Assembly (NCBI RefSeq): GCF_900111025.1
Contig: NZ_FOFN01000003.1
Span: 496,001 to 560,000 of the forward strand
Reading direction: 5' to 3'
From: Hyunsoonleella jejuensis
GTDB taxonomy: Bacteria > Bacteroidota > Bacteroidia > Flavobacteriales > Flavobacteriaceae
Length of the DNA: 64,000 bases
The notes beneath the pieces were generated by a model. That model was not told the origin of the DNA and did no database searches. It was given only the letters and a program-made list of their open reading frames with translations. The position numbers and the translations under genes were made by a program. Of this stretch, positions 35,420 to 61,062 are shown piece by piece. How positions within the stretch are numbered: position 1 is the first letter of the stretch; each line of letters starts with the position of its first letter.

Positions 35420-35462
35420 CAAATGTTGAAAGTTAAGTATAATTAAAATATGATATTAATCA
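35420..35462 (-). promoter_or_regulatory. Crp/Fnr-type site and -7 element of the copper ATPase promoter
   Basis: On the minus strand TGATTAATATCA (35462-35451) is a 4+4 palindrome with a 4-bp spacer, close to the Fnr box core TGATnnnnATCA. After exactly 23 bp comes AACATTTG (35427-35420), seven of eight matches to TAnnTTTG counting free positions. The same site-N23-(-7) layout occurs at pflB and ppdK. The centre falls near -42, a class II activator position. The divergent fnr-type gene shares this 104-bp spacer and may also be controlled. Confidence 0.65.
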
Positions 35463-35498
35463 TGATTTATTTATTTTTACCTAATTATTAAATAAGGT

Positions 35499-36176
35499 AT
35501 GAGTAAATGTGAACAATGTATCATTAAGCAATTTAACGCGCTTAAGTCTTTGACTAAGGATGAGTTAATTAGAATTTCTGGATGCAAAACCTCCAAAACA
35601 ATTAAAAAAGGTGAAATTATTTTTGAAGAAGGTGATGCTATAAATGGTGTATATTGTATTAAGGATGGTATATGTAAATTATCAAAATTAAGTGAAAACG
35701 GAAAGGACCAAGTTGTAAAGATGGTAGTGAAAGGGCAGTTGATTGGACAACGATCTTTGGTCTCAAATGAAAGTTCTAATTTACAAGCCACGGCACTAAA
35801 CGATATGGAGGTATGTTTTATTCCAAAAAGCGAAATTATTGCTGATTTAGAACGAAATCCAAAATTCACTTTAGATATGCTAAAGGATATGGCCCATGAT
35901 TTAAAGGAGGCAGACGATGTAATAGTAGATATGGCTCAAAAATCTGTAAAGCAACGTTTAGCTGAAACATTAATTTATGTAGAAAAAAACTTTGGTACTA
36001 ATCCTGACGGTACTATAAGCCTTGTGTTATCTCGTGAAGATTATGCAAATATTGTTGGTACAGCTACAGAATCCGCAATAAGGGTATTATCCCAATTTAA
36101 AAAAGAGGGCTTAATTTCTTTGGTAGGTAAGCAAATTAAAATAGAAGATTCTAACGGATTGCGACGTGTGGAATAG
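35499..36176 (+). CDS. Crp/Fnr-family transcriptional regulator
   Basis: A 225-residue regulator. The N-terminus has C4-x2-C7 (MSKCEQCIIKQF), and further cysteines occur at 29, 53, 59 and in VCFIPKS, so an oxygen-sensing Fe-S cluster is possible but spaced differently from E. coli Fnr. A cyclic-nucleotide-binding-like beta-roll spans about 30-115, then a long dimer helix and a winged HTH (SREDYANIVGTATESAIRVLSQF). The recognition helix keeps the Glu and the Arg four residues later that Crp and Fnr use to read TGA half-sites. It is divergent from the copper ATPase gene and is the best local candidate to bind the TGAY-N4-RTCA sites. Confidence 0.92.
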   Translation: MSKCEQCIIKQFNALKSLTKDELIRISGCKTSKTIKKGEIIFEEGDAINGVYCIKDGICKLSKLSENGKDQVVKMVVKGQLIGQRSLVSNESSNLQATALNDMEVCFIPKSEIIADLERNPKFTLDMLKDMAHDLKEADDVIVDMAQKSVKQRLAETLIYVEKNFGTNPDGTISLVLSREDYANIVGTATESAIRVLSQFKKEGLISLVGKQIKIEDSNGLRRVE

Positions 36177-36264
36177 TTCGTATTGCATTTTCATGTTAAA
36201 GAATAGATAAATCTGATTGTTGTCCTAATAGTTTTATTTTGAAATGTAGTATTTTTATACTGCG

Positions 36265-37392
36265 ATGAAAGAGAATAAAATTTTTAGAAAAGGGTTTGTT
36301 TTTAATACTTACGAAGCACCCTATAAATCACCTTTCGATACACTATTTGAGGTCTTCAAAGAATTAATAATACATACTTCAGGAGATTTTGACGAAGCTA
36401 TTAGTTGGCTTAGGGAGCTGGATAAAGAGTATAAGCTTACCACGCCAGAATATACGATAGACGATTTTATTGAAGACTTAAAAAAGAAGGGCTATTTACG
36501 TGAGGAAATTGATCCTGATGGTAATGGTTTCTTGGCTATAACGGCTAAGACTGAAAGGGCCATTCGACAACAAGCCTTAGATCAAATTTTTGGAAAAATA
36601 AAACGTAGTGGTCAAGGTAATCATAAAAGTAAAAGCCCTGGTATTGGCGATGAACATACTGGAGATTTTAGAGGTTATCAATTTGGGGATGCCTTGGACA
36701 AAGTATCGATGACGGAAAGTTTAAAGAATGCCCAAATTAATCATGGAATTTCTGATTTTACATTATCGGAAGAGGATTTAGTAGTTGAGGAGACTTTGCA
36801 TAAATCACAAATGAGTACAGTGTTGATGATAGACATCAGTCATAGTATGATTTTGTATGGTGAAGACCGTATTACCCCAGCAAAGCGTGTAGCCATGGCA
36901 TTAGCAGAGTTAATCACAACAAGATATCCAAAAGACACCTTAGATATTATAGTGTTTGGAAATGATGCTTGGCGTATTGAGATTAAGGATTTACCATATT
37001 TAAAAGTAGGGCCTTATCACACAAATACCGTGGCCGGTTTAGAATTGGCTATGGATTTATTAAGGCGAAAACGAAATACCAACAAACAGATTTTTATGAT
37101 TACCGATGGTAAACCAAGTTGTTTACGCTTGCCCGATGGTCAGTATTATAAAAATAGTATGGGCTTAGATACACATATCATTAATAAATGCTATATGATG
37201 GCACAACAAGCAAGACGTTTGCATATACCAATAACTACATTTATGATAGCTAAAGATAGTTATTTAATGCAATTTGTTCGTGAGTTTACATATGCAAACC
37301 AAGGAAAAGCATTTTACACAGGACTTAAAGGTTTAGGTGAAATGATTTTTGAAGATTACGAAACAAACAGAAAAAAACGGATTAGAGGTTAA
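36265..37392 (+). CDS. VWA-domain protein (magnesium-chelatase D-like partner)
   Basis: A 375-residue soluble protein. The C-terminal half is a von Willebrand A domain with an intact MIDAS motif (MIDISHSM, D-x-S-x-S), then IVFGNDAW and MITDGKPS. The N-terminal half is charged and unassigned (KGFVFNTYEAPYKSPFDTLF). It precedes an AAA+ ATPase on the same strand by 96 bp. Such VWA/AAA+ pairs work like chelatase D and I subunits or MoxR systems that remodel a protein or insert a metal. The target is unknown. Confidence 0.85.
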   Translation: MKENKIFRKGFVFNTYEAPYKSPFDTLFEVFKELIIHTSGDFDEAISWLRELDKEYKLTTPEYTIDDFIEDLKKKGYLREEIDPDGNGFLAITAKTERAIRQQALDQIFGKIKRSGQGNHKSKSPGIGDEHTGDFRGYQFGDALDKVSMTESLKNAQINHGISDFTLSEEDLVVEETLHKSQMSTVLMIDISHSMILYGEDRITPAKRVAMALAELITTRYPKDTLDIIVFGNDAWRIEIKDLPYLKVGPYHTNTVAGLELAMDLLRRKRNTNKQIFMITDGKPSCLRLPDGQYYKNSMGLDTHIINKCYMMAQQARRLHIPITTFMIAKDSYLMQFVREFTYANQGKAFYTGLKGLGEMIFEDYETNRKKRIRG

Positions 37393-37405
37393 ATAATTAG
37401 TTGTT

Positions 37406-37482
37406 GGCTTTTAGGTATTGGGCTTTAGTTTACAATATTTTTTAAGACTCTTGCCAATAGCGAAAAGCAAACGGCCAAAAGC
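37406..37482. repeat. Related direct and inverted repeat units in the VWA-AAA spacer
   Basis: GGCTTTTAGGTATTGGGC (37406-37423) is inverted as GCCAATAGCGAAAAGC (37453-37468), and a third partial unit GGCCAAAAGC follows at 37473-37482. The arms could form an imperfect hairpin. It may affect the relative expression of the two genes or may be neutral. Confidence 0.45.
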
Positions 37483-37488
37483 TAAGAA

Positions 37489-38949
37489 ATGAAAAATATA
37501 AAAACACTAGGAGCACTAAAAAAAGAAGGATATCAATCCAAATCAATAAAAGATGAACTCAGGGATAACCTGATTCAAAAGATAAAACATAATGAGACGA
37601 CTTTTGAAGGCGTTCATGGGTATGAGAATACTGTGATTCCAGAATTAGAGCGTGCCATTTTGTCCAGACATAATATCAATTTATTGGGATTAAGAGGACA
37701 GGCAAAAACACGTTTAGCACGCTTGATGTTGAATTTACTAGATGAATATATACCTGTAGTTGAAGGTTCTGATGTTAATGACGACCCCCTAAAACCTATT
37801 TCAAGATATGCGATTGAGCTAATAAAAGAAAAAGGGGATGATACACCTATTACTTGGATGCACCGAAGCGAGCGTTTTGCTGAAAAACTTGCAACACCAG
37901 ACGTAACCGTTGCAGATATTATTGGTGATGTAGATCCTATAAAAGCAGCTAATTTAAAATTGAGTTATGCTGATGATCGTGTGATTCATTACGGTATGAT
38001 ACCACGGGCGAACCGTTGTATTTTTGTTATTAACGAATTACCCGATTTACAGGCTCGCATTCAAGTAGCTTTATTTAATATTTTACAAGAAGGAGATATC
38101 CAAATAAGAGGCTTTAAAGTACGATTGCCTTTAGATATTCAATTTTTATTTACTGCAAACCCTGAAGATTATACGAACAGAGGTAGTATCGTTACGCCTT
38201 TGAAAGATAGAATTGGTTCGCAAATTTTAACACATTACCCTGAGGATATTGAGACTGCACGTTTAATAACCGAACAAGAAGCTAATTTAGTTGAAGGCCA
38301 GAAAGAGAATGTACTGGTTCCAGATTTGGCAAAAGATTTATTAGAACAAATAGTTTTTGAAGCTCGGGAAAGCGAATATATCGATGCAAAATCCGGGGTA
38401 AGTGCAAGACTCAGTATCACTGCTTTTGAAAACTTATTAAGTACTGCTGAAAGAAGAGCGCTAATAACAGGTGACGAAAAAACCACCTTACGATTAAGCG
38501 ATTTTATTGGCGTAATTCCATCTATTACTGGGAAAGTAGAATTGGTATATGAAGGAGAGCAGGAAGGTGCTGCTGTAGTGGCATACAATCTGATCGGTGA
38601 AGCTGTGAAGAATTTGTTTGTTGAGTTTTTTCCAAAGATTGAAAAACTAAAAAAGCAAGATGAAGAAACCCCTTATGACGATATTGTTTCGTGGTTTTTT
38701 AATCAAAAAGATGGTTTTGAATTATTGGATGACCTAAGAGATAAAGAATACAAAAGTATGCTCGATGCCATTGCTCCATTAGATGATTTATTAGGGCGGT
38801 ACCAACCAAACCTTAAAAAAGAAGATAGTTATTTTGTGAAAGAATTTGTGCTTTGGGCCTTGGCAGAATACAAACAGTTAAGTAAAAATAGGTTTTCAGA
38901 AGGTATGCAGTTTAAAGATCCGTATGGAAGTTTTATAAGCGGTATTTAA
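37489..38949 (+). CDS. AAA+ ATPase, magnesium-chelatase I-like
   Basis: A 486-residue ATPase of the ChlI/MoxR group. The P-loop region reads GLRGQAKTRL (67-76), with Ala in place of the second Gly, and the Walker B region reads FVINELPDL with Asn in place of the usual Asp. I recall the same GQAK and INELPDL text in homologues, so this is a family trait. Sensor and helix-2 insert text follows (ILQEGDIQIRGFKVRLPL, FTANPEDYTNRGSIVTPLKDRIG). It should form a ring and work with the VWA protein encoded just upstream. Confidence 0.87.
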   Translation: MKNIKTLGALKKEGYQSKSIKDELRDNLIQKIKHNETTFEGVHGYENTVIPELERAILSRHNINLLGLRGQAKTRLARLMLNLLDEYIPVVEGSDVNDDPLKPISRYAIELIKEKGDDTPITWMHRSERFAEKLATPDVTVADIIGDVDPIKAANLKLSYADDRVIHYGMIPRANRCIFVINELPDLQARIQVALFNILQEGDIQIRGFKVRLPLDIQFLFTANPEDYTNRGSIVTPLKDRIGSQILTHYPEDIETARLITEQEANLVEGQKENVLVPDLAKDLLEQIVFEARESEYIDAKSGVSARLSITAFENLLSTAERRALITGDEKTTLRLSDFIGVIPSITGKVELVYEGEQEGAAVVAYNLIGEAVKNLFVEFFPKIEKLKKQDEETPYDDIVSWFFNQKDGFELLDDLRDKEYKSMLDAIAPLDDLLGRYQPNLKKEDSYFVKEFVLWALAEYKQLSKNRFSEGMQFKDPYGSFISGI

Positions 38950-38976
38950 GTCTGTTTTTAATACAATAATCAAATT

Positions 38977-39014
38977 AAAAGAGTCAATTTTTAAATCAAA
39001 TTGGCTCTTTTTTT
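38977..39014 (+). terminator. Terminator of the VWA-AAA unit
   Basis: GAGTCAATTT (38981-38990) pairs with AAATTGGCTC (38998-39007) with one G-T pair and a 7-nt loop, followed by a run of Ts. It lies 30 bp past the AAA+ stop. Confidence 0.85.
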
Positions 39015-39081
39015 ATTGAATTGAGTTCATTTTTAGATTGTGTAATCATTAAAATTGTTACGAGAACTTTTAATAATTCTT

Positions 39082-39110
39082 AATGTGAGACAATGAATTT
39101 ATCACATTGT
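39082..39110 (+). promoter_or_regulatory. Nested inverted repeats upstream of the sugar operon
   Basis: AATGTGA (39082-39088) and TCACATT (39102-39108) are perfect inverted arms 13 bp apart. Nested in them, ACAATG (39090-39095) and CATTGT (39105-39110) are inverted arms 9 bp apart. They lie about 100 bp before the first gene of the operon in a 260-bp spacer with no other gene. A regulator site is likely; no sugar-type repressor gene is adjacent. Confidence 0.4.
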
Positions 39111-39209
39111 AAATACTAACGAAATTTGATGAATTTAGCTTGTTTTTAAGTGTTTAAAGCCTTATTTTCTCAAAAAACGAAATAAAAACACTAAATTTTA
39201 AACATATCT

Positions 39210-41297
39210 ATGATTAATAAAAGTGCCGAAATTCCAGAAAAGATAAGTTTTCTTTCTTTCGATATAGACAATACATTAATAGATTTTGACACGTATAAAA
39301 GCAATTTTAAGAAAGTGTGGGAATCTTATACGCCAAAAGATGTTTTTTTGGCATATAATACAGGGCGCTTAATTGATGATGTTCTAAATTTAATAGACAA
39401 TGGTATATTGCCAGAACCCCATTTTATAATTTCTGGTGTAGGCACCCATATTTACAATTTTACAGAAAAAAAAGTTGTAAAGGAGTTTAATGATGTTTTA
39501 GATGATGGTTGGGATATAAAAACGGTCGAGGATATCATTACCAGTATCAACTTTCCAATTAATGAGCAGCCTTCACGATTTCAGCATGCTTATAAAAGAA
39601 GCTATTTCTTTCACGACGCAACATTAGATGCAATTGAAGAGATTGAACGAAAATTTTTAGATAAAGAGATGCATATTAATGTGGTGTATTCACAGGATAA
39701 ATACTTGGACATACTGCCAAAATTTGCAAACAAATCCAATGCTTTGCAATGGTTAATTAGAAAACTTGAATTAAAAACACAGCAAGTTTTGGTGGCAGGC
39801 GATAGCGGTAATGATTCTGCCATGTTCGACTTAAAAGATGTGCAAGGTATTGTGGTGTCAAACGCTCACGAAGAATTATATACATATACGAAACATAAAA
39901 AAGTTTATCACACAGAACAAGAAAAAAGTGATGGTGTTATAGAAGGTTTGGTGTATTTCGGGATTTTACCTGAAGAAGCTAAAATAATAAGCGATATAGA
40001 TCACAGTGAAGATTTTTTTATTAAAAAGGAACTAGATACTATTGCAAAGGAAGATGAAGACGAAAAAATTGCCCTTATAAAAGAAGGTTACAAAAAAGCT
40101 ATAGAAGCATTAAAAAAGAATATTACTCCCTTAGGATTTTCGGCATGTTCTATTGAAGACAACGTTGCGCACGGAACTGATGAAAATTATTATAGTGTTT
40201 GGGCTCGAGACGGCGCTATAACTGTTATTGGCGCATTGCCTTTGATACATAAAGATGAGGCAATTCATAATTGTGCTAGACAAACACTGGTTACGCTATT
40301 TGAGCATATTTCTAGAAACGGCCAAATACCTTCAAATGTACGTATCAAAAACAATATTCCAGATTACTCAGGAGTAGGAGGGATCTGTTCAATAGATAGC
40401 GGTATCTGGGTGGTTATTGCTTTTTACGAATATGTTAATATCACTAAAGACATTAAATTTCTTAGAGAATACATTTCCAGCTTAAAAGAGACCATGCGAT
40501 GGTTGGGGGCACATGACAGTAATAATGATGCACTTTTAGAAATTCCAGAGGCAGGTGATTGGACGGATTTATTTGGAAGGAGTTATAATATTTTATATGA
40601 TGAAATTTTATGGTACCGAGCCAATGTGTGTTTTGGTCGTATGCTAGAAATGCTCGGAGATCATGAACAGGCCGGAGAATATATACGGTGGTCTCAAGTG
40701 ATAAAAAAGGAAATTGTACAAAACTTTTGGCCATCAACACAACAGCAATTATTTCAGTCAGTTTCTTTTGCCGAAAAACAATTTACACTTGGAGATACCT
40801 CGTATTTAATTGCTCAAACTACACCTTTTGATTTTAGTTGGCGTTGTGATACACTAGGAAATGTTCTTGCGTTTTTACACGGTACAATTGATGCTGAAAA
40901 AGCGCATCAAACTTTTAAATTCATGTTAGGCGTTGGTGTAAACGATCCTTTTCCTATAGCTAATGTGTATCCCGTTGTTAGCCCGGGAGATCCTGACTGG
41001 AGACCATATTACACAGTTAATTTATTGAATTTACCAAATCATTATCATAATGGTGGTATTTGGCCTTTTGTAGGAGGGTTTTGGGTAAAATTTATAAATA
41101 AATTAGGATTGAAGGATGTAGCAATTTCAGAATTACACAAATTGGCATTGATAAATAAGGAAGGTATAAATAACGAGTGGGAATTCACAGAATGGGCACA
41201 TGGAACAACTGGAAAGCCAATGGGAAAAGCATACCAAGCATGGTCTGCGGCGCAGTATATTTCTGCTTGTCATGACCTAAAAATTACAAAAAAATAA
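39210..41297 (+). CDS. Fusion of sucrose-phosphatase-like HAD domain and (alpha/alpha)6 glycosidase
   Basis: Residues 1-255 are a HAD-IIB phosphatase of the sucrose-6-phosphatase type: D18-x-D20-x-T22 (FDIDNTLID), T51 (YNTGR), the Lys in KFANKSNAL and GDSGND (197-202). Residues about 285-690 form a second domain resembling amylo-alpha-1,6-glucosidase, GH63 and GH100 (neutral invertase) proteins: WARDG (331-335), IDSGIWVV (395-402), EAGDWTDL (448-455, acid candidate Asp450) and NEWEFTEWAHG (655-665, base candidates Glu). With the synthase and fructokinase genes downstream, the phosphatase should finish disaccharide synthesis. The glycosidase may release fructose from the same sugar. Domain calls are firm; the substrate is inferred. 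Confidence 0.82.
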   Translation: MINKSAEIPEKISFLSFDIDNTLIDFDTYKSNFKKVWESYTPKDVFLAYNTGRLIDDVLNLIDNGILPEPHFIISGVGTHIYNFTEKKVVKEFNDVLDDGWDIKTVEDIITSINFPINEQPSRFQHAYKRSYFFHDATLDAIEEIERKFLDKEMHINVVYSQDKYLDILPKFANKSNALQWLIRKLELKTQQVLVAGDSGNDSAMFDLKDVQGIVVSNAHEELYTYTKHKKVYHTEQEKSDGVIEGLVYFGILPEEAKIISDIDHSEDFFIKKELDTIAKEDEDEKIALIKEGYKKAIEALKKNITPLGFSACSIEDNVAHGTDENYYSVWARDGAITVIGALPLIHKDEAIHNCARQTLVTLFEHISRNGQIPSNVRIKNNIPDYSGVGGICSIDSGIWVVIAFYEYVNITKDIKFLREYISSLKETMRWLGAHDSNNDALLEIPEAGDWTDLFGRSYNILYDEILWYRANVCFGRMLEMLGDHEQAGEYIRWSQVIKKEIVQNFWPSTQQQLFQSVSFAEKQFTLGDTSYLIAQTTPFDFSWRCDTLGNVLAFLHGTIDAEKAHQTFKFMLGVGVNDPFPIANVYPVVSPGDPDWRPYYTVNLLNLPNHYHNGGIWPFVGGFWVKFINKLGLKDVAISELHKLALINKEGINNEWEFTEWAHGTTGKPMGKAYQAWSAAQYISACHDLKITKK

Positions 41298-41313
41298 TAA
41301 AAACAAAATAATT

Positions 41314-42588
41314 ATGAAATCAATTTTAATGATCTCTTTGCACGGATACGTAGCCGCTAGTCCAGAACTTGGAAAACCAGATACAGGCGGGCAAGTAGTT
41401 TACGTTTTAGAACTTGCCGAACGCTTTAGCCGTCTAGGGCGAAGGGTAGATTTGTTGACGCGTCAGTTTGAAGATCAACCTGAATACGATCATGTGAATG
41501 AAAACTATAATATATGGCGCATCCCTTTTGGCGGAAAGGAGTTTATTAGAAAAGAGGATATGCACGATTACTTAAAAAAGTTTGTTACCAATACTTTGGC
41601 AGCCATAAAAAAGGAAAATAAAAAGTATGACATTGTCTATTCGCATTACTGGGATGCAGGATGGGCTGGACAAAAAATTGCTGAAGAGCTAGGTATTTCC
41701 CACGTACATACCCCACATTCTCTAGGTTGGTGGAAACAACATACCATGGGAAGTGATATGGATGAAAAAGAGATGGAAAAGACATATCGATTTAAAGAGC
41801 GCATTCAAAAGGAGTATTTTGTATTTCAAATGTGTAACCATGTTATAGCTACTACAATTCCCCAAGTAGATTTACTAACACAGCAGTATGATCTTTTGCC
41901 TCGAAACTGTACTATGATACCCCCTGGAATTGATGAAAATCGATTTTATCCTGTCCCTTCAAAGGAAAATGATAAGATAAGGGCAAAGTATGATATACAT
42001 CCTACCGATATATTGGCTTTAGGAAGAATGGCGCACAATAAAGGCTATGATTTATTAATCAAGGCATTACCTACCGTATTTGAATTGGTACCTGAAGCAC
42101 GATTAGTGGCAGCCGTTGGTGGCGATTCTGCTCAAGATAAACAAGGCATAAAAAAGTTAAAAACATTAGCTAACAAACTTGGTGTGAACGACAAAATAAA
42201 ATGGAAAAACTATATAGCCGATGAAGATTTAGCAAACGTTTATCGATCTGCTAATATTTTTGCTATGCCGTCTCGATACGAGCCTTTTGGAATGGTAGCT
42301 ATAGAGGCTATGGCGTGCGGAACTCCTAGTGTAATTACTGTTCATGGTGGATTGAATGACTTAATTGATTTTGGAAACCAAGCTTTATTTGCTGATCCTC
42401 ATAGACCAATAGAATTTGGTGCAATGATGTCGATGCCATTGCTTTATCCAAATTTAAGAAATGAACTCTCTGTTGAAGGGGCTAGATTTGCACGACGAAA
42501 TTTTGGATGGACTGGGATTGCAAAACGTATGCTAAAGGTGTTTACAAATTCCATAAATCAGCGTACTATGGAGTCTAACATTTTTTAA
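41314..42588 (+). CDS. Sucrose-phosphate synthase-like glycosyltransferase (GT4)
   Basis: A 424-residue GT-B transferase of the sucrose-phosphate/mannosylfructose-phosphate synthase branch. The N-terminal acceptor region reads SLHGYVAASPELGKPDTGGQVVYVLELAERF (in part HGYVAASPELG and DTGGQVVYVLELA). The donor side has GRMAHNKGYDLLIKAL and the E-x7-E motif in EPFGMVAIEAMACGTPSV. It should transfer glucose or mannose from a nucleotide sugar to fructose-6-phosphate. The two products cannot be told apart by eye. It starts 16 bp after the fusion gene and 12 bp before the kinase gene, so all three are one operon. Confidence 0.88.
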   Translation: MKSILMISLHGYVAASPELGKPDTGGQVVYVLELAERFSRLGRRVDLLTRQFEDQPEYDHVNENYNIWRIPFGGKEFIRKEDMHDYLKKFVTNTLAAIKKENKKYDIVYSHYWDAGWAGQKIAEELGISHVHTPHSLGWWKQHTMGSDMDEKEMEKTYRFKERIQKEYFVFQMCNHVIATTIPQVDLLTQQYDLLPRNCTMIPPGIDENRFYPVPSKENDKIRAKYDIHPTDILALGRMAHNKGYDLLIKALPTVFELVPEARLVAAVGGDSAQDKQGIKKLKTLANKLGVNDKIKWKNYIADEDLANVYRSANIFAMPSRYEPFGMVAIEAMACGTPSVITVHGGLNDLIDFGNQALFADPHRPIEFGAMMSMPLLYPNLRNELSVEGARFARRNFGWTGIAKRMLKVFTNSINQRTMESNIF

Positions 42589-42600
42589 GTTTCCTTAAGG

Positions 42601-43485
42601 ATGACTAAAATTGTTTGTTTTGGAGAAGTATTATGGGATGTTTTTCCCAACGGAGACAAAAAAATTGGTGGAGCCCCACTAAATGTGGCTTTACGTTTAA
42701 GTGCCTTTCAAAACGAGGTCGCTATGGTGAGTGCCGTAGGGCAAGACGACAATGGTAAAATAATTCTTGATTATTTAGAAAAAAATAAAGTATCATCTTC
42801 TTTTATTCAAAAAAAAGAAGATTTTAATACGGGAGAAGTATCAGTAAAACTAAATAAGAAAGGATCTGCCACTTATGATATTGTTTACCCAAGTGCTTGG
42901 GACAAAATTGAATTAACTGAAGACCTAAAATCTTTAGTGACCTCTGCCGATGCATTGGTTTTTGGTAGTTTGGTGACACGAGATGAGATATCTAAAAACA
43001 CCTTATGGTCTCTCTTACGGTTATCTTCGTTTAAGGTTTTTGATGTCAACTTACGTCCTCCACACTATTCAAAAGATATTTTGATAAAATTGATGGAGCA
43101 ATCAGATTTTATAAAGTTTAATGACGAAGAACTTTACGAAATTGCAGGTTATTTAAAGTCAAAATACAACGCGTTAGAACAAAATCTTCTATTTATTGCG
43201 GAAAAAACTAATACGTCTCAAATTTGTGTTACCAAAGGAGAGCATGGTGCTGTTTTATTGATTAATGGTAAACTCTATTATAACAGCGGGTATAAAATAA
43301 AAGTTAAGGATACTGTTGGTGCGGGCGATTCGTTCTTAGGTACACTATTGAGTCAATTATTAAATGGAGTAAATCCGCAAAAAGCAATTGATGTCGCTTG
43401 TGGCGTTGGTGCACTCGTGGCGCAGAGCGAAGGGGCAAACCCCAAATTATCCAAAGATGAAATAAATGCATTTATCAACCCTTAA
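42601..43485 (+). CDS. PfkB-family fructokinase
   Basis: A 294-residue ribokinase-fold sugar kinase. The substrate side is VCFGEVLWDVFPNGDKKIGGAPLNVALRL and the ATP/anion-hole motif is DTVGAGDSFLG with catalytic Asp. Sequence and length fit bacterial fructokinases that phosphorylate fructose at C6. As the third gene of the disaccharide operon it can return fructose released by hydrolysis to fructose-6-phosphate, the acceptor of the synthase. It converges with the next gene, 5 bp apart, and I see no clear terminator between them. Confidence 0.9.
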   Translation: MTKIVCFGEVLWDVFPNGDKKIGGAPLNVALRLSAFQNEVAMVSAVGQDDNGKIILDYLEKNKVSSSFIQKKEDFNTGEVSVKLNKKGSATYDIVYPSAWDKIELTEDLKSLVTSADALVFGSLVTRDEISKNTLWSLLRLSSFKVFDVNLRPPHYSKDILIKLMEQSDFIKFNDEELYEIAGYLKSKYNALEQNLLFIAEKTNTSQICVTKGEHGAVLLINGKLYYNSGYKIKVKDTVGAGDSFLGTLLSQLLNGVNPQKAIDVACGVGALVAQSEGANPKLSKDEINAFINP

Positions 43486-43490
43486 ACCAT

Positions 43491-44549: not shown

Positions 44550-44551
44550 AT

Positions 44552-46201: not shown

Positions 46202-46211
46202 TTTTAAAAAT

Positions 46212-47543: not shown

Positions 47544-47569
47544 GAAATTTATTTTCATCTAAAGTAATA

Positions 47570-47606: not shown

Positions 47607-47645
47607 CATTTGAATTAGTCACACGAAATTGTTAGAGTTTTACAC

Positions 47646-49457: not shown

Positions 49458-49481
49458 TTATTTTTCTTTTAATATCTTTTT

Positions 49482-50672: not shown

Positions 50673-50677
50673 AATGT

Positions 50678-50798: not shown

Positions 50799-50804
50799 TT
50801 TGTT

Positions 50805-53213: not shown

Positions 53214-53231
53214 GTTTACTTAAACTATGAT

Positions 53232-53672
53232 TTATTTATTGTTATAAATTTTTTTGTTTGAAACCAACTCATTTATGGTTTCGGCGACTTCATAAAAATG
53301 GTTGATTTTTTCCTCATCTACATTTTTTTTGATAGCTTCATTAAAACCAAGCACCTTAGCTTTCGATAGTTCTCGTTTTTCTTTTCCAAATTCAGTTAAA
53401 TGAATTAAAACGCCTCTACCATCGTCGGGGTTGGGGTGACGTTCAATTAAACCACGTTTTTCCATTGATTTTAAAATGCGAGATAGACTTGTGGCTTCCA
53501 TACCCATTTTAGGACCTAAAGCGGTGGAGGGTGTACCTTTTTCAGGATCTATACTTAATAAGGTAAAACCTGTAGCCATTGTACTTTCAAATTTTGCGGC
53601 CTCTTCGTTATACATTTTATTTACGGTTAGCCAAGTAGTTCTAAGTACATAGTCTATTGTTTTATCTTTCAT
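53232..53672 (-). CDS. MarR-family regulator of the fad operon
   Basis: A 146-residue winged-HTH protein. The DNA-binding region reads PSTALGPKMGMEATSLSRILKSMEKRGLIERHPNPDDGRGVLIHLTEFGKE (in part ATSLSRILKSMEKRGLI and DDGRGVLIHLTEFG), the MarR recognition helix and wing. It is first in the fad operon and has a 22-bp palindrome in its promoter, so autoregulation and control of fadN-fadA are likely, perhaps relieved by acyl-CoA as for other fatty-acid regulators. The ligand is inference. Confidence 0.9.
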   Translation of the reverse strand: MKDKTIDYVLRTTWLTVNKMYNEEAAKFESTMATGFTLLSIDPEKGTPSTALGPKMGMEATSLSRILKSMEKRGLIERHPNPDDGRGVLIHLTEFGKEKRELSKAKVLGFNEAIKKNVDEEKINHFYEVAETINELVSNKKIYNNK

Positions 53673-53692
53673 TCTTTCTTAGGTTGGTTTGC

Positions 53693-53729
53693 CAAATATA
53701 ATAAAAATTTATTATGCATGCATAATAAA
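53693..53729 (-). promoter_or_regulatory. Promoter and perfect palindromic operator of the fad operon
   Basis: The -7 element TATATTTG (minus strand, 53700-53693) fits TAnnTTTG perfectly, about 20 bp before the marR ATG. Upstream, 53708-53729 is a 22-bp perfect palindrome with core ATTATGCATGCATAAT (53711-53726), covering where the -33 box should be. A regulator bound there would block RNA polymerase. The first gene behind it encodes a MarR protein, so it is the likely operator. Confidence 0.7.
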
Positions 53730-53756
53730 AAAACAAAAATAGTTTAAGGTTTGGTC

Positions 53757-53790
53757 AAAAAAAATCACTCTACAATGAGAGTGATTTTAT
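53757..53790 (-). terminator. Terminator of the small membrane protein gene
   Basis: AAAATCACTCT (53761-53771) pairs with AGAGTGATTTT (53778-53788) around a 6-nt loop, with a T run on the minus strand. It lies about 20 bp past the stop at 53810. Confidence 0.85.
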
Positions 53791-53809
53791 AAAACATGAA
53801 TGATTTTTA

Positions 53810-54202
53810 TTAGCCCAATTTGCCGTTAACCGCGCCAATTACCGCACCGATTATAGCAGTCATTACAATCGAAATTCCAACATCTAAAGCTGCAAGTTCA
53901 ATTGTTGCCTCAGGTTGCATAGCTAAATTGAAAAAATTATAATAAATGCCTATTAACAAACCTATAATAGCGCCTGCTTTTGCTCCTGTTGCTGCCGTAG
54001 ATATTTGCGCCCAACGTGTGTAAATGTAAGACACGAATAGTCCAAAGGTTAAGCAACCCAGAAATATAAAGAGCATTGTGGTGGAACTTTCTTCTGGTTG
54101 AGGAAAAGTGTTTATAAAAATAATTCCATAAAATAGCCACCCTAAAAGGAAGTCCACAATGCCTCCAACAATACCAGCAATTAAGAAGTTTTTTGTTTTC
54201 AT
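53810..54202 (-). CDS. Small four-helix membrane protein of unknown function
   Basis: The ATG at 54202 gives 130 residues beginning MKTKNFLIAGIVGGIVDFLL; the ATG at 54253 adds 17 polar residues that do not look like an export signal. Four hydrophobic segments are visible, the second and fourth rich in Gly and Ala (GAKAGAIIGLLIGIYY, AIIGAVIGAVNG). It resembles small DUF1761-type membrane proteins, but I am not sure of the family. It has its own terminator and lies between the fad operon and fadD. No link to fatty acids is shown. Confidence 0.65.
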   Translation of the reverse strand: MKTKNFLIAGIVGGIVDFLLGWLFYGIIFINTFPQPEESSTTMLFIFLGCLTFGLFVSYIYTRWAQISTAATGAKAGAIIGLLIGIYYNFFNLAMQPEATIELAALDVGISIVMTAIIGAVIGAVNGKLG

Positions 54203-54327
54203 TTTTTTAGTTTTTAATTGGTTATGTTGAATTAAATGTACTAAAAAAAACAATAACTTACTGATTATATATAAATTACGGAATTGTTTGGGTCGAAAAC
54301 AAAGACTCTTTGTTAAATAAGATTAAT

Positions 54328-56103
54328 TTATTTGGGACGATAAATGTTTTCAATTAAGTCTTCATACATTTTCTTTATAACGTCTCTTTTCATTTTCATT
54401 GTAGGTGTAAGATGTCCGTCATCAATCGACCAAATTTGTGGTGTAATTTCGAATTTTTTTATTTGTTCCCATTTCCCAAATTTCGTATTACACTTATCTA
54501 CCTCTTTTTGAATTCTTTTTTTAACTATTTCAGAACTCGCCATGGCATCCATTGAATTTTCAATACCATGATTTTTACGTTCTATCCATTCATGTAAGAA
54601 ATCAAAATTTGGTTGAATTAAGGCAGCTGGCATTTTTTCTCCCTCACCAATTACCATGACTTGTTCAATAAAACGAGACTGTTTTAATTGATTCTCCAAT
54701 AGCGTTGGAATAATATATTTACCACCAGATGTTTTGAACATTTCTTTTTTACGCCCAGTAATTTTCAAGAATCCATCAGCATCAATTTCGCCTTTGTCTC
54801 CGGTATGAAAGTAATCGCCTGTCATAACAATTGCTGTTTTTTCAGGATCTTTATAGTAGCCCATCATTACGTTTGGGCCTTTAATGAGTATTTCGCCATC
54901 TTCGGCAATTTTAACTTCAACATTGGCAATAGGAATTCCGACGGTTCCCACTTTGTACATTTTATCAGCGTATTTGCCAACAGATACAACAGGAGATGTT
55001 TCTGTTAAACCATAGCCTTCCATAACCTGCATTTTTGCGGCCCCAAATATTCTGGCTAATCGCGGTTGTAGTGCAGCACTACCGGAAACCATAGTGCCTA
55101 AATTGCCACCAAGTGCAGCACGCCATTTACTAAAGATGAGTTTATTGGCTATTTTTAGTTTAAATTCGTACCACGCTCCATTTTCACCATAGGGCTTCCA
55201 TTGCTCTCCTAAACTTACTGCCCAGAAGAATAGTGCTTTTTTTACACCAGATAAGTCTTCGGCTTTATCCATAATTTTATCATATACCTTTTCTAATAGT
55301 CTTGGAACAACGCTCATCATATCAGGTTTAATCTCTTTAGCGTTGTCGCCAATTTTATCTAAACCTTCGGCGTAATAAATAGAAGTACCTGCGTGTTGAT
55401 ATACATAAATAAGCACGCGTTCAAAAATATGACATATCGGTAAAAAGCTTAAAATTCTGGTCTCTCCTTCTTTCAAAGGTACTCTCGGGGCACTATCTAA
55501 AACGTTACTGGTAATATTCCAATGAGAGAGCATTACACCCTTTGGTTTTCCTGTTGTTCCAGATGTATAAATTATGGTAGCTAAATCATTAGGTTTTACG
55601 GCTTCTTTTCTAGCTTCAACTTCATTTTGAGTAGACGTATCTTTTCCTAACTCGAACAATTCGGAATAGTGCCTACAACCTTCAATATGATCAAAAGAAT
55701 ATACTTCTTTTATATTGGTGTTTTTTTTGACTTTGTTTACTTTTTCAAGCACCTCTTCATCAGAAACAAAGCAATAAATAGATTCACTATGATTGATTAC
55801 ATATTCATAATCTTCAGCACAAATTGTTGGATATATTGGTATGTTTTGAGCGCCTACTTGTAGTACACCAATATCAACAATATTCCATTCTGTTCTGTTA
55901 GTGGTGGAGATAACAGCAATCTTATCGTTTTTTTTAACGCCAAGTTTTAATAAAGCTCTACTTAGTGCATTGGCTTTATCTAGATATTCTTGGGTAGAGG
56001 TTTTTACCCATGTACCATCGTATTTTGTTACTAAAGCAGCATTATTGGGTTTATGCTTTAATTGGTAATACGGAAAATCAAAAAGTCTAGTAATCTCTTT
56101 CAT
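54328..56103 (-). CDS. fadD: Long-chain fatty acid-CoA ligase
   Basis: A 591-residue AMP-forming ligase. The ATP motif is IIYTSGTTGKPKGVMLSH (near 180), then MEGYGLTETSPVVSVG, YFHTGDKGEIDADGFLKITGRKKEMFKTSGGKYI (adenylation and hinge) and the C-terminal lysine domain. It activates fatty acids to acyl-CoA, feeding the fad operon next door. Length and text match the long-chain AMP-dependent synthetases of Bacteroidota. It is transcribed alone from a promoter at 56127-56156. Confidence 0.93.
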   Translation of the reverse strand: MKEITRLFDFPYYQLKHKPNNAALVTKYDGTWVKTSTQEYLDKANALSRALLKLGVKKNDKIAVISTTNRTEWNIVDIGVLQVGAQNIPIYPTICAEDYEYVINHSESIYCFVSDEEVLEKVNKVKKNTNIKEVYSFDHIEGCRHYSELFELGKDTSTQNEVEARKEAVKPNDLATIIYTSGTTGKPKGVMLSHWNITSNVLDSAPRVPLKEGETRILSFLPICHIFERVLIYVYQHAGTSIYYAEGLDKIGDNAKEIKPDMMSVVPRLLEKVYDKIMDKAEDLSGVKKALFFWAVSLGEQWKPYGENGAWYEFKLKIANKLIFSKWRAALGGNLGTMVSGSAALQPRLARIFGAAKMQVMEGYGLTETSPVVSVGKYADKMYKVGTVGIPIANVEVKIAEDGEILIKGPNVMMGYYKDPEKTAIVMTGDYFHTGDKGEIDADGFLKITGRKKEMFKTSGGKYIIPTLLENQLKQSRFIEQVMVIGEGEKMPAALIQPNFDFLHEWIERKNHGIENSMDAMASSEIVKKRIQKEVDKCNTKFGKWEQIKKFEITPQIWSIDDGHLTPTMKMKRDVIKKMYEDLIENIYRPK

Positions 56104-56126
56104 AGTTGGTATAGAATATATTGATG

Positions 56127-56156
56127 CAAATTATGAAAATAAATATGACTAACAAA
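56127..56156 (-). promoter_or_regulatory. Promoter of fadD
   Basis: On the minus strand TTTG (56156-56153) is followed after 19 bp by TAATTTG (56133-56127), a -7 element one base short of TAnnTTTG. It is 24 bp before the fadD ATG. Confidence 0.5.
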
Positions 56157-56379
56157 TACTCTGAATTTTTTAAACATTCTAAAGCGCAATTGGTTTCTAT
56201 TTTTAAGTAAATGCGTAAACAATTTAGGAAAACGATGTGTTTTCTATTCTATAATTGGCATTTTTTTAACGATAATATTTAGCATATTAATAACCACACT
56301 GGGTTTTTTTTGTCAAATTCTAGATATTTTTTATTGTTTTAATTGAAGTTGAGAAAAATATTCATTCTTAATATATAGC

Positions 56380-56441
56380 TGACATTTGTCATAATTTTCC
56401 ATGAATCCTACTTCTAAATTTGTCTTGTCAAATAATGACAA
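56380..56441 (+). promoter_or_regulatory. Crp/Fnr-type site, -7 element and second palindrome before pflB
   Basis: In the 368-bp fadD-pflB spacer, TGACATTTGTCA (56380-56391) is a palindrome of the TGAY-N4-RTCA type. Exactly 23 bp later TAAATTTG (56415-56422) is a perfect -7 element, placing the site centre near -42. A second inverted repeat, TTGTCA-AATAA-TGACAA (56425-56441), covers the predicted start of transcription and could be a repressor or redox-regulator site. The rest of the spacer (56157-56379) is AT-rich without a gene I can support. Confidence 0.7.
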
Positions 56442-56471
56442 CATTTTACAAAATATAAATTATACATAGAG

Positions 56472-58697
56472 ATGGAAGTAAAAGAGTTTAAGCCAGGAGT
56501 TTGGATTGATGAGATTAACGTTAGAGATTTCGTAATTAAAAATGTTACACCTTATCATGGTACAGATGAATTCTTAGTTGGACCTAGCGAAAGAACTGAA
56601 CGCTTGTGGAATATTTGTAAAGCAGCCACTAAGGAAGAGCGCCAAAATAATGGTGTTCGTGCCTTAGATACTGAGACAATTTCAACGGTTAGTGCCTTTA
56701 ATGCAGGTTATATAGATAAGGCAAACGAAGTAATAGTTGGGTTACAAACCGACGAGCTATTAAAGCGCACAATGAAACCGTTTGGTGGTTTTAAAGTGGT
56801 GCAAAAAGCCTTAGCTGAACAAGGTGTAAAACCTAATGATAACTTAACAGAGTTATTTTCTAAATATGTAAAAACACACAACGATGGTGTATTTTCAGCA
56901 TATAATGCAGAGATTAAAAAGTTCCGTTCTTTAGGATTTTTAACAGGGTTACCAGACAATTATGCTAGAGGAAGAGTTATTGGAGATTATCGTCGTTTAG
57001 CGCTCTACGGTATTGACGCTTTAATTGAAGCTAAGAAAAAAGATTTGGCAAATATCACTGGGCCAATGACAGATGCTGTGATTCGTCTTCGAGAAGAGGT
57101 TTCGGATCAAATCAAGGCCTTAAAGGAAATGATTGTTTTAGGCGCTAAATACGATTTAGATCTAACACGTCCTGCAGAAAATGCAAGAGAAGCGGTACAA
57201 TGGACCTATATGGGATACTTGGCAGCGGTAAAAGAGCAAGACGGTGCTGCAATGTCGCTTGGGAATGTATCTACTTTCTTAGATATATATATTGAAAACG
57301 ATTTGCAAGAAGGTTTAATAACCGAAGAAGAAGCACAGGAATATATCGACCAGTTTGTTATGAAACTTAGAATGGTGCGCCATTTAAGAATGAGTGCATA
57401 CGACGAGATTTTTGCTGGTGACCCTACTTGGGTAACAGAAGCTATTGGTGGTATGTTTGAAGATGGTAGAACTAAAGTTACTAAAACGTCATTTCGATTC
57501 TTAAATACACTTTACAACTTAGGAGCATCCCCTGAGCCAAATATGACGATTCTTTGGTCTAAGGACTTACCACAAAATTTTAAGGATTTTTGCGCTAAAG
57601 TAGCGATTGACACCTCTTCTATTCAGTTTGAAAATGATGAATTAATGCGTCTAAATAGAGGTTCTGACGATTATGGTATTGCATGTTGTGTGTCTTACCA
57701 AGCATTAGGTAAATCTATCCAATTCTTTGGTGCACGTACTAATTTGGCCAAAACATTATTATTAGCAATAAACGGTGGTCGTTGTGAAATGACAGGAACG
57801 CAAATGGTGGATGGTATTGAGCCATGCGATTGTGAGTATTTGGATTTTGATAAAGTAATGGCCAACTTCAAAATAGCAATGAAGGAAGTAGCTAGGGTTT
57901 ATAATGACTCTATGAACATTATTCACTATATGCACGATAAATACTATTATGAAAAAGCCCAAATGGCCTTAATTGACACAAATCCGAGTATTAATATTGC
58001 TTATGGTATTGCAGGCTTATCAATAGTAGCAGATTCACTTTCAGCTATTAAATATGCGAAAGTAAAACCAATTAGAAATGAAGAAGGTTTAACGGTAGAT
58101 TTTAAAATTGAAGGAGACTTCCCTTGCTACGGAAATGACGATGATAGAGTAGATGCATTAGCTGCAAATGCAGTTGCTGATTTTAATGATGAATTGAAAA
58201 AATTACCAGTATATAAAAATGCAGAACCAACAATGTCTGTATTAACCATTACATCCAATGTGGTTTATGGTAAGAAAACAGGTGCTACGCCAGATGGAAG
58301 ATCGCAAGGTGTACCTTTTGCACCTGGTGCCAACCCAATGCACGGTAGAGACACCCATGGCGCAATAGCTTCATTAAACTCTGTAGCCAAAATAGATTAC
58401 AAAGATTCTCAAGATGGTGTTTCAAATACCTTCTCAATCGTTCCAAAATCATTAGGAGCAAGTAAAGAAGAGCGAATAGAAAACCTTGCTTGTATCTTAG
58501 ATGGCTATTTTTCTAAAAATGCACAACACGTTAACGTGAATGTTTTAGATAAAGAAACCTTACTAGATGCCATGGAGCATCCAGAAGAGTATCCACAGTT
58601 AACCATTAGAGTTTCTGGTTACGCGGTAAACTTCGTAAGATTAACCAAAGAACAACAAATGGAAGTGATAACGAGATCATTCCACGAATCAATTTAA
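56472..58697 (+). CDS. pflB: Formate C-acetyltransferase (pyruvate formate-lyase)
   Basis: A 741-residue glycyl-radical enzyme that splits pyruvate with CoA into acetyl-CoA and formate without oxygen. The adjacent catalytic cysteines are Cys405-Cys406 in [14 protein letters not shown], and the radical Gly716 is in RVSGYAVNF near the C-terminus. The Cys-Cys pair distinguishes true PFL from diol-dehydratase relatives. It is oxygen-sensitive, so its presence suggests growth with little oxygen. pflA follows after 64 bp, and a Crp/Fnr-type promoter lies upstream. Confidence 0.97.
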
Positions 58698-58723
58698 AAC
58701 CAAACTCTATTTTGTATTTTGTA

Positions 58724-58766
58724 AGCATCTGAAAAATGAAGTATAACAGCTTCTTTTTCAGATGCT
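58724..58766 (+). other. Hairpin between pflB and pflA covering the pflA start codon
   Basis: AGCATCTGAAAAA (58724-58736) pairs perfectly with TTTTTCAGATGCT (58754-58766) over a 17-nt loop. The right arm contains the ATG at 58762 assigned to pflA. It may lower pflA expression relative to pflB, act as an mRNA processing or 3'-protection site, or be a weak terminator; the T stretch after it is short. Confidence 0.65.
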
Positions 58767-59535
58767 AATTTTAAAACGACTAATTATCGAACATAAAGAA
58801 AACATATTAAGAGTACATTCTATTGAATCTTTCGGGACGCATGATGGGCCGGGGGTAAGAATGGTAATATTTTTACAAGGATGTAAGCTAAAATGTTTGT
58901 ACTGTCATAATCCAGATACAATAGATACGCATGGGGGTAAAGCATACCAAATAGAGGACTTGGTACAAATGGCAATAAAAGAAAAGCCTTATTTCGGAAA
59001 AAAGGGAGGTGTTACCGTTTCAGGTGGTGAACCTTTATTGCAAGCTAAAGCTTTAGTGCCTTTTTTTAAAAGACTAAAAGAAGAAGGTATTCATACCAAC
59101 ATAGATACTAATGGTAGATTACTAAACCACTTTATTGAGGAGTTATTGGATGAATATGCAGACTTGGTGATGTTGGATATAAAGCATATGAATGAGGAAG
59201 GCTATGAGTATATCACAGGTCAAAAAAATAAGGAAACCACATTTAGTTTTGCAAAATACAGAGAAGCCTCAGGAAAAAAAATGTGGTTGCGTTATGTGTT
59301 AATTCCAGGGATTACAAACCAACCTGAATTATTGCATCAGATGGGAGGTTATTTTAAGGATTATAAAACAATTGAAAAAATAGAGATTCAGCCCTATCAC
59401 AAATTAGGTGTACACAAATGGGATGCCTTAGGTTGGGAGTATCAGTTAAAAGATGCTAGAGAGAACACTATAGAAGAGATTGATACTGCTGTAGAAATTT
59501 TACAACAATATTTTAAAGAAGTTAGAGTAAATTAA
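58762..59535 (+). CDS. pflA: Pyruvate formate-lyase-activating enzyme
   Basis: A 257-residue radical-SAM protein that uses SAM and a [4Fe-4S] cluster to form the glycyl radical on PflB. The cluster motif C-x3-C-x2-C is in GCKLKCLYCHNPDT, preceded by HSIESFGTHDGPGVRMVIFLQ and followed by VSGGEPLLQ (SAM-binding GGEP). The ATG at 58762 adds about 15 residues before the family's usual N-terminus (LRVHSIES) and lies in a hairpin; no other ATG is available before the conserved part. The OFA transporter follows by 37 bp. Confidence 0.95.
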   Translation: MLILKRLIIEHKENILRVHSIESFGTHDGPGVRMVIFLQGCKLKCLYCHNPDTIDTHGGKAYQIEDLVQMAIKEKPYFGKKGGVTVSGGEPLLQAKALVPFFKRLKEEGIHTNIDTNGRLLNHFIEELLDEYADLVMLDIKHMNEEGYEYITGQKNKETTFSFAKYREASGKKMWLRYVLIPGITNQPELLHQMGGYFKDYKTIEKIEIQPYHKLGVHKWDALGWEYQLKDARENTIEEIDTAVEILQQYFKEVRVN

Positions 59536-59572
59536 TGAGTGCTATTATAGAAGCAACTCGAATACAAATATT

Positions 59573-60844
59573 ATGCAAACACAAAAACTAAAAAACCGTT
59601 GGTTAATAGCAGCTTCGGCGGTAGGAATACATATTTCAATAGGATCGGTATACGCGTATTCTGTAATGACCAATCCAGTAAAAGATATTTTTGATGTTGA
59701 TGGAAGTGTAATAAAATGGGCATTTAAAATAGCCATTTTATTGCTAGGGCTATCAGCAGCATTTTTAGGAAGATGGGTAGAACGTGTTGGCCCAAAAATT
59801 AGTGGTACTGCTGCTGGTATTTTTTACGGTGTTGGTATTCTAGGTTCTGGACTTGCCGTTCAGTTGGAATCATTGTGGTTATTTTATTTATGCTACGGTG
59901 TTATTGGCGGTATTGGTTTGGGCTTAGGGTATATTACTCCCGTAAGTACTTTAGTAAAATGGTTTCCAGATAGGCGAGGTTTAGCGACAGGTATGGCAAT
60001 TATGGGCTTTGGTTTTGCCGCCCTAATTTTTGGCCCTGTAATGCAATCATTGTTTGATGCAGTAGGTGTGTCCAATGCATTCTATGTATTAGGACTAATA
60101 TATATGGTACTTATCTTATCTTCTGCTAGATATATTGAAAGACCACCAGAAGGCTATTTGCCTGATGGGTTTAAACCTGGAGAAGGAAAAACAATTAAGA
60201 AAGACATGGCAAACATAACGGCCAATGAAGCTTTAAAAACCCCACGATTTTATTATATCTGGATCATGATGTTTATTAATATTGCATGTGGTATTGCCAT
60301 TATTTCTGCGGCAAGCCCGATGATGCAAGAAAAACTAAGCTACACACCCATGGAGGCTGCTGCAATAGTTGGTTTAATAGGTGTATTTAATGGGCTTGGT
60401 AGAATTATGTGGAGCACTTTATCCGATTATTTAGGACGTGCAAACACCTATATTGTTTTCTTTGGATTTCAAATTTTGGCCTTCTTCTTCCTTCCAAAAA
60501 TAGGTGTAGAAATTATGTTTTTAGTAGTGCTCTTTACGGTAATCACCATGTACGGTGGAGGTTTTGCAACATTGCCGGCATTTTTAGGAGATTTATTTGG
60601 CACCAAACAGTTGGGGGCTATTCATGGTATGGTGCTTACTGCTTGGGCATTGGCAGGGGTTGTAGGGCCTACTGTTTATGATATGGTTAAAAACGCAACA
60701 GGTTCCTTAGATACTACATTAAAAGTATTTGCTGGGTTGTTTATTATTGCCTTAATCGTATCATTATTAATGAAACGTGTGGTTATGAACGCCTACCGAA
60801 AAGAGGAAAAAAAAACTAACAATAAACTTAAGTTCGCAGCATAA
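59573..60844 (+). CDS. OFA-family MFS transporter, possible formate or organic-acid carrier
   Basis: A 423-residue major-facilitator protein with about 12 transmembrane helices. It matches the oxalate/formate antiporter family: WLIAASAVGIHISIGSVYAYSVMTNP, GGIGLGLGYITPVSTLVKWFPDRRGLATGMAIMGFGFAALIF (in part YITPVSTLVKWFPDRRG) and TLPAFLGDLFGTKQLGAIHG. As the third gene of the pfl operon, in the place where other bacteria have focA, it may move formate, pyruvate or lactate across the inner membrane. The substrate is inferred from context. Confidence 0.88.
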   Translation: MQTQKLKNRWLIAASAVGIHISIGSVYAYSVMTNPVKDIFDVDGSVIKWAFKIAILLLGLSAAFLGRWVERVGPKISGTAAGIFYGVGILGSGLAVQLESLWLFYLCYGVIGGIGLGLGYITPVSTLVKWFPDRRGLATGMAIMGFGFAALIFGPVMQSLFDAVGVSNAFYVLGLIYMVLILSSARYIERPPEGYLPDGFKPGEGKTIKKDMANITANEALKTPRFYYIWIMMFINIACGIAIISAASPMMQEKLSYTPMEAAAIVGLIGVFNGLGRIMWSTLSDYLGRANTYIVFFGFQILAFFFLPKIGVEIMFLVVLFTVITMYGGGFATLPAFLGDLFGTKQLGAIHGMVLTAWALAGVVGPTVYDMVKNATGSLDTTLKVFAGLFIIALIVSLLMKRVVMNAYRKEEKKTNNKLKFAA

Positions 60845-60870
60845 CGAACTTTGAAGTTTTAGTTGAAACG

Positions 60871-60905
60871 AAAAGCGCCTTCAGTAAAATGAAGGCGCTT
60901 TTTTA
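60871..60905 (+). terminator. Terminator of the pflB-pflA-transporter operon
   Basis: AAAAGCGCCTTC pairs with GAAGGCGCTTTT around AGTAAAAT, with six Ts after the stem. A strong rho-independent terminator. Confidence 0.92.
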
Positions 60906-61019
60906 TTTAAATATAAATGCTCAAAAAACACAGTTTTGTGGTGAAAATGCATTTTCAATAAATAATCCATGAAAAAAGCTTTATTAAATGCTAATTCTTT
61001 AAAAGTCATAATATTTCTA

Positions 61020-61062
61020 TGATTTTTGTCATAATTATTCACCTGTTTAAATTCTACTTTTA
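61020..61062 (+). promoter_or_regulatory. Crp/Fnr-type site and -7 element before ppdK
   Basis: TGATTTTTGTCA (61020-61031) matches the pflB site at 10 of 12 positions, and the five following bases TAATT are also shared. After exactly 23 bp comes TACTTTTA (61055-61062), a -7 element with one mismatch. The spacing equals that at pflB and the copper-ATPase promoter. The predicted start lies about 30 nt before the ppdK ATG. Confidence 0.65.

Follow-up and report, generated by a model that had tools for sequence, protein, structure and literature searches.

Three promoters in one stretch of the Hyunsoonleella jejuensis genome carry a Crp/Fnr-type palindrome at the same distance from a −7-like element, which raises the question of whether the genes behind them form part of a common regulon and, if so, which protein reads the shared site. 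The stretch, hereafter the window, comprises 64,000 nucleotides of contig 7 (positions 496001–560000) in a genome of 3.48 Mb and 11 contigs. The genes encode a copper-type P-ATPase (ccoI, a name assigned from context), pyruvate formate-lyase (PFL, pflB) and pyruvate phosphate dikinase (PPDK, ppdK). A preliminary description of this DNA had located the three palindromes and predicted a redox regulon. When the window DNA was re-read, all three were found at the positions reported, and the spacer between palindrome and −7-like box is exactly 23 bp at ccoI, pflB and ppdK. The pflB box is a perfect match to TAnnTTTG; that of ccoI deviates at the first base and that of ppdK at the last. The three sites likely belong to a class II activator regulon that extends across the genome, with an Fnr-like protein encoded beside the ccoI site as its foremost candidate reader and a receiver-Crp fusion protein as a probable second one.

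The window alone proves little, since neither element is enriched within it: the palindrome occurs four times against an expectation of 3.8, and TAnnTTTG 107 times against 103. The signal lies instead in the spacing. Genome-wide, 21 exact palindrome/TAnnTTTG pairs are found at spacers of 8–38 bp, with 12 at a spacer of 23 bp and nine at the 30 other spacers together; taking those nine pairs as background, the Poisson probability of 12 pairs at 23 bp is ~8e-16. A reversed-pattern control gave seven matches in the same genome. This control was judged too lenient, as in 52 reduced genomes (family f15) it yielded four matches against 36 for the pattern itself, apparently recurrent homologous coding matches when viewed by eye, and the spacer control was therefore relied on instead. 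The preliminary description had also asked whether the pattern is equally frequent at random genes; this was addressed only through the other spacers as a stand-in, and there the answer favours the regulon (12 of 21 at spacer 23).

Class II sites of Crp and FNR are centred at −41.5. The preliminary description had placed the sites near −42, in the class II position, and this estimate holds: passages of a study of Flavobacterium psychrophilum put the housekeeping −7 box at −12 to −5 (PMC9723704), which together with a 23-bp spacer centres the palindrome at −41.5. The distance from the −7 box to the ATG has medians of 22–29 bp in the four site groups counted, which fits short leaders. Such a geometry points to a mechanism in which a dimeric Crp/Fnr-type protein would bind TGAY-N4-RTCA(T), replace the −33 contact and bring in the housekeeping RNA polymerase of Bacteroidota at a −7 box of the form TAnnTTTR. 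The exact geometry provides a rule for the prediction of activator-dependent promoters with a TAnnTTTG box.

Conservation in relatives, which had been put forward as a test, supports the predicted regulon alongside the spacing. Orthologs were sought in 53 genomes, 52 of the same family and one (G045) from another family of the order; at E ≤ 1e-100, pflB was found in seven, ppdK in ten and ccoI in 49. All pflB and ppdK loci and 30 of the 49 ccoI loci were compared. The box stands at spacer 23, with at most one mismatch, in 27/30 ccoI, 9/10 ppdK and 5/7 pflB promoters, the corresponding figures for the best other spacer (8–38 bp) being 5/30, 1/10 and 1/7. A second set comprised 80 loci from genomes of Jejuia, Hyunsoonleella, Algibacter, Flavivirga and others, some of them metagenome-assembled or uncultured. 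The ccoI-side box lies at spacer 23 in 71 of these, and the next most frequent spacer is found in eight. Five of the nine remaining loci (L284, L350, L352, L353 and L356) have a kinase and receiver-Crp operon between ccoI and fnr, the gene for the Fnr-like protein. Four of these five rearranged loci possess a spacer-23 box towards the ccoI side; the ccoI start follows 25–27 bp beyond it in two and lies beyond the stretch covered in the other two. None of the 71 loci with the spacer-23 box has T at the first base of the ccoI −7 element, where A, G or C stands in 71/71, and T is likewise absent there from the 27 box-bearing loci of the 30 described above. This departure from TAnnTTTG is a conserved weakness, which may keep the ccoI promoter strictly activator-dependent. 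The regulon is of the class II Crp/Fnr type and widespread in the Flavobacteriaceae, and the targets predicted for it suggest a link to low oxygen and stress.

Table 1. Promoter elements, regulator and predicted target genes in the window (window coordinates)
Feature	Position	Strand	Remarks
Copper-type P-ATPase (ccoI/fixI-like), predicted target	33019–35394	minus	Pfam E1-E2 ATPase and metal-binding domain
ccoI −7-like element, AACATTTG	35420–35427	minus	First base not T
Crp/Fnr-type palindrome, common to divergent ccoI and fnr promoters	35451–35462	minus for ccoI	Spacer 23 bp (ccoI), 9 bp (fnr)
Predicted fnr −7 element, TATTTTTA	35472–35479	plus	9 bp from palindrome, centre ~−27.5
Fnr-like regulator, 225 aa	35499–36176	plus	Cys4, 7, 53, 106; reading helix TESAIR
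pflB promoter palindrome, TGACATTTGTCA	56380–56391	plus	
pflB −7 element, TAAATTTG	56415–56422	plus	
Pyruvate formate-lyase (pflB), predicted target	56472–58697	plus	Pfam
Probable PFL-activating enzyme	58762–59535	plus	Likely co-transcribed with pflB; name by eye from sequence
ppdK promoter palindrome, TGATTTTTGTCA	61020–61031	plus	
ppdK −7 element, TACTTTTA	61055–61062	plus	
Pyruvate phosphate dikinase (ppdK), predicted target	61099–63828	plus	Pfam

The regulon is much larger than the three promoters from which it was first proposed. Sites with spacer 23 and no more than one mismatch number 51 genome-wide. The surrounding DNA was examined for 48 of them: 43 precede an open reading frame (ORF), four lie inside longer ORFs and one has no downstream ORF that could be found. 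The 43 sites lead to 42 distinct downstream proteins, 40 of which were scanned against Pfam (the two omitted were one universal stress protein, Usp, and a TonB-type receptor at a distance of 489 bp), and a family was assigned at E ≤ 1e-5 to 33. Many of the predicted targets suit low oxygen or fermentation, among them a COX1-FixO fusion (ccoNO), PFL, PPDK, PFOR, phosphate acetyltransferase, iron-type alcohol dehydrogenase (Fe-ADH) and a radical SAM protein (HemN-like by eye). The predicted set also includes the P-ATPase, malate dehydrogenase, phosphoglycerate kinase (PGK), a cytochrome c, a molybdopterin oxidoreductase, an S30AE ribosome-binding protein, an Rrf2 regulator and the stress proteins Usp, Hsp20 and DnaJ. 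We infer that oxygen is the signal of the regulon. According to passages of PMC9723704, an oxygen-starved flavobacterium strongly induces its cbb3 oxidase, and haem-synthesis enzymes are also induced.

The boxes are unevenly distributed, 12 of the 43 falling within an island at 50–91 kb of contig 4 whose genes include Usp, Hsp20, DnaJ, PFOR, patatin and MlaE-type genes. A T follows RTCAT in 10 of the 12 island sites, the other 31 sites of this genome preferring A; a second reader or local duplication may account for this. Elsewhere, on contig 2 (105972–106045), a single palindrome stands 23 bp from each of two divergent promoters, one leading to a cytochrome c gene and the other to the gene of an Rrf2 regulator, with one mismatch in the −7 box on the Rrf2 side.

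The protein encoded beside the ccoI site is composed of a cNMP-binding-like domain (PF00027, E 7.5e-19) and a Crp-type helix-turn-helix (HTH) domain (PF13545, E 2.3e-16), and among the solved structures that it matches are those of an FNR type regulator (e.g. 5cvr/5e44), which has cysteines aligned with Cys4, Cys7 and Cys106. Among 28 sequences, one of them a paralog, Cys4, 7, 53 and 106 are present in 28, 27, 28 and 27, respectively, so Cys53 is invariant. In E. coli-type FNR, a Glu and an Arg of the reading helix contact the TGA half-site. This pair, which the preliminary description had recognized, is indeed present in the TESAIR helix, and Glu is found in 28/28 and Arg in 27/28 sequences, the exception being the paralog of genome G160. 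By these features the window protein is FNR-like, but it does not carry the cysteine set that characterizes E. coli-type FNR. The protein may plausibly bind an Fe-S cluster in which one ligand has moved, and through such a cluster, held by an altered set of cysteines, it would be active when oxygen is low.

That an Fnr-family gene adjoins the first site had been stated at the outset and is correct, and the ccoI box adjoins fnr in H. jejuensis and most of the relatives read. On the fnr side, the spacer between palindrome and −7 box is 9 bp in 65/80 loci, and one palindrome combines the 23-bp ccoI side with the 9-bp fnr side in 62/80. A 9-bp spacer sets the palindrome centre at ~−27.5 of the fnr promoter, where a bound protein should block the polymerase, and autorepression of fnr is therefore predicted. 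Thus, the same palindrome probably represses fnr itself; positioned between −33 and −7 of the divergent promoter, it would allow active Fnr to turn ccoI up and its own gene down. Among 23 fnr genes of greater diversity, 10 have a spacer of 9 bp, 16 fall within 8–11 bp and three have 23 bp, and a few lineages seem to employ fnr self-activation instead. An fnr-specific box at spacer 23 was also considered in the five rearranged loci and was dropped, as the boxes end 860–915 bp before fnr; these boxes, located just after the fusion gene, probably serve another gene in between.

The H. jejuensis genome encodes seven Crp-type HTH proteins, at least three of which have the same reading residues by eye. 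One, a fusion protein of 350 aa encoded in the contig 4 stress island, joins a phospho-receiver to a cNMP-like domain and a Crp HTH. Its gene overlaps that of a PAS histidine kinase (626 aa) by 4 bp, the pair occupying ~72680–75606 of contig 4 (8678–11607 of locus L048). Of the 24 distinct full-length fusions read, all but a second copy in genome G240 have a related kinase gene as neighbour (23/24). The receiver Asp is present in 24/24, and the fusion reading helix has the same Glu and Arg residues. The presence or absence of regulators was set by E-value cuts (receiver-Crp, E ≤ 1e-50; orthologs of the paralog L041, considered below, E ≤ 1e-45). Across 53 same-family genomes, H. jejuensis included, 20 possess both Fnr and the fusion, 24 Fnr only, eight the fusion only and one neither; sites with zero mismatches (TANNTTTR) total 469, 232, 118 and 1 in these groups. 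The sole genome with neither regulator is also without ccoI (E ≤ 1e-100). Exact boxes occur at ccoNO and at the hemN-like gene in both Fnr-only and fusion-only genomes (18 genomes, six covered partly). Among the fusion-only genomes, G057, where ccoI lies ~1 kb after the fusion gene, G164, G188 and G240 keep the ccoI box, but it is missing from G192 and G034. Because several genomes without the Fnr ortholog keep boxes at ccoNO, ccoI and hemN, the adjacent Fnr is probably not the sole reader. The simplest reading of this distribution is that both proteins probably read one box and that lineages can lose either. The fusion and its kinase would then add the universal-stress-protein island to the regulon, and the fusion would replace Fnr in genomes that have none. 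Site logos from Fnr-only and fusion-only genomes, some of them covered partly, differ mildly (base 5 A, 0.66 versus 0.32; base 8 T, 0.81 versus 0.46), and the window sites could not be assigned to one regulator.

An alternative division of labour is that the fusion and its kinase are the main activators of most boxes, including the three in the window, with Fnr tuning only ccoI and itself. This would agree with the position of the fusion gene inside the densest box cluster (contig 4, 50–91 kb), with the E and R residues of its reading helix and with site densities: genomes with both regulators have 5.35 sites per Mb and fusion-only genomes 4.24, compared with 2.39 in Fnr-only genomes (Mann-Whitney p 6e-5 and 0.001, respectively, values that ignore relatedness). 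However, the box stands at ccoI, pflB and ppdK in G160 and G204 (with one mismatch at G204 pflB), two genomes that possess an Fnr ortholog but show no receiver-Crp at E ≤ 1e-50, and G240, with two fusions and no Fnr ortholog, has no pflB box that could be found. These genomes favour Fnr as the reader of pflB and ppdK, and the proximity of the ccoI box to fnr also speaks against the fusion as main activator, which we regard as unlikely. A third possibility, that another Crp/Fnr paralog reads the boxes, has a candidate in L041 (contig 4, 619394–620140), one of the seven Crp-type HTH genes, in which, by eye, the Glu/Arg pair is preserved and the N terminus is rich in Cys. Its orthologs are confined to 18 of 246 genomes of the order, whereas a far larger number of genomes in the family contain boxes, and a role for it as the reader is very improbable. 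In seven genomes of genus g2 (G002, G017, G096, G126, G168, G184 and G208) the match to L041 contains one stop codon, which could be an alignment overrun at the end or real. Finally, the absence of enrichment of either element in the window might suggest that the common spacing arose by chance in an AT-rich genome, but this is refuted by the 12 of 21 genome matches at a single spacer, by the conservation at ccoI, ppdK and pflB in the first set of relatives and by the 71 of 80 orthologous promoters at spacer 23.

A regulon read by Fnr, with the fusion as second reader, is the preferred reading, and a number of observations weigh against it. Among the targets, pgk, malate dehydrogenase, DnaJ and patatin have roles that are not confined to low oxygen, and seven of the 40 scanned proteins have no Pfam family. 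The E. coli-type cysteine set is incomplete in the window Fnr, as its third N-terminal Cys is absent and Asn13 is aligned there, and the AlphaFold model, with pLDDT <50 at residues 1–28, is too weak to place a cluster. Within 350 bp upstream, no box was found at pflB in G240 and G114, at ppdK in G156 or at ccoI in G061, G192 and G034, and the ccoI box of G232 lies 194 bp from the start codon used. In addition, the counts by regulator content come from related genomes, which are not phylogenetically independent.

The kinase paired with the fusion in H. jejuensis has a PAS-LOV-PAS histidine kinase architecture. Its second PAS is a LOV domain, as the stretch 132–253 matches 4gcz, a YtvA/FixL chimera (1.7e-29), and YtvA itself (2pr5, E 1.4e-30), and the LOV core contains the photoactive-Cys motif NCRFLQ. 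The pair may be a two-component system for blue light whose output is of the Crp type. LOV motifs are found in 8/23 distinct kinases, one of them with NCR changed to SCK. In FixL, the haem-ligand His occupies a set position in the kinase PAS. The motif [LIV][LMIV]P-x6-H, representing this position, is present in 20/23 distinct kinases, and the G057 kinase matches FixL structures; a motif search found no FixL-type haem His in the first PAS of the H. jejuensis kinase.

In the open-licence literature, considered by title, start of abstract or passages, no description was found of an Fnr-type regulon of these bacteria or of its box. HcpR, PgRsp and CrpPg of Porphyromonas gingivalis are Crp/Fnr regulators from the same phylum but, by their descriptions, are set apart as regulators of haem, redox, nitrosative stress or virulence. 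A Flavobacteriales Crp/Fnr homolog has been assigned to MalR, with a carbon response that, as described in passages of the source (PMC8510549), does not match the H. jejuensis regulon. The closest parallel for the window protein is E. coli-type FNR. The two have in common the Crp fold, an N-terminal CxxC with a later Cys, TGA half-sites, a centre at −41.5 and targets, predicted ones in H. jejuensis, such as pflB and oxidase maturation. They differ in that the window Fnr is without the third N-terminal Cys and has the invariant Cys53, that the −7 box in H. jejuensis is TAnnTTTR and that the divergent fnr promoter is predicted to be repressed from the same palindrome. The operators are also distinct. 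The E. coli-type box is TTGATnnnnATCAA, with flanks TTGAT..ATCAA, whereas (A)TGAY..RTCA(T) is preferred in the flavobacterial sites. Of the 43 sites of this genome, 23 have A immediately before TGA and two have T, and base 13 is T, rather than the A of the E. coli-type box, in 77–100% of sites in four groups.

If one- and two-component regulators do share a box and replace one another between lineages, they would offer an example from nature of regulators being exchanged while the operators are conserved. The second reader resembles the FixL-FixJ-FixK system of rhizobia, in which a PAS histidine kinase likewise leads to a Crp/Fnr-family regulator, and here too the predicted targets include cbb3 oxidase genes. 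In H. jejuensis, however, receiver and Crp output form one 350-aa protein with no separate FixJ, and the kinase has no haem His in its first PAS but possesses a LOV domain. That domain is alignable over its length with YtvA-type blue-light receptors and shares their LOV core with NCRFLQ; its output, via the kinase, is instead the receiver-Crp fusion. The LOV kinase raises a concrete question on the relation of light to low oxygen. We tentatively suggest that one class II box is served by two unlike sensors, an Fnr-like protein with a rearranged set of cysteines and the kinase/receiver-Crp pair, exchanged between lineages as promoters such as ccoNO, ccoI and hemN retain the box, and that blue light, in addition to oxygen, might here gate low-oxygen respiration, fermentation and the stress island, in what would amount to a FixL-FixJ-FixK cascade cut to two proteins and rewired to light.

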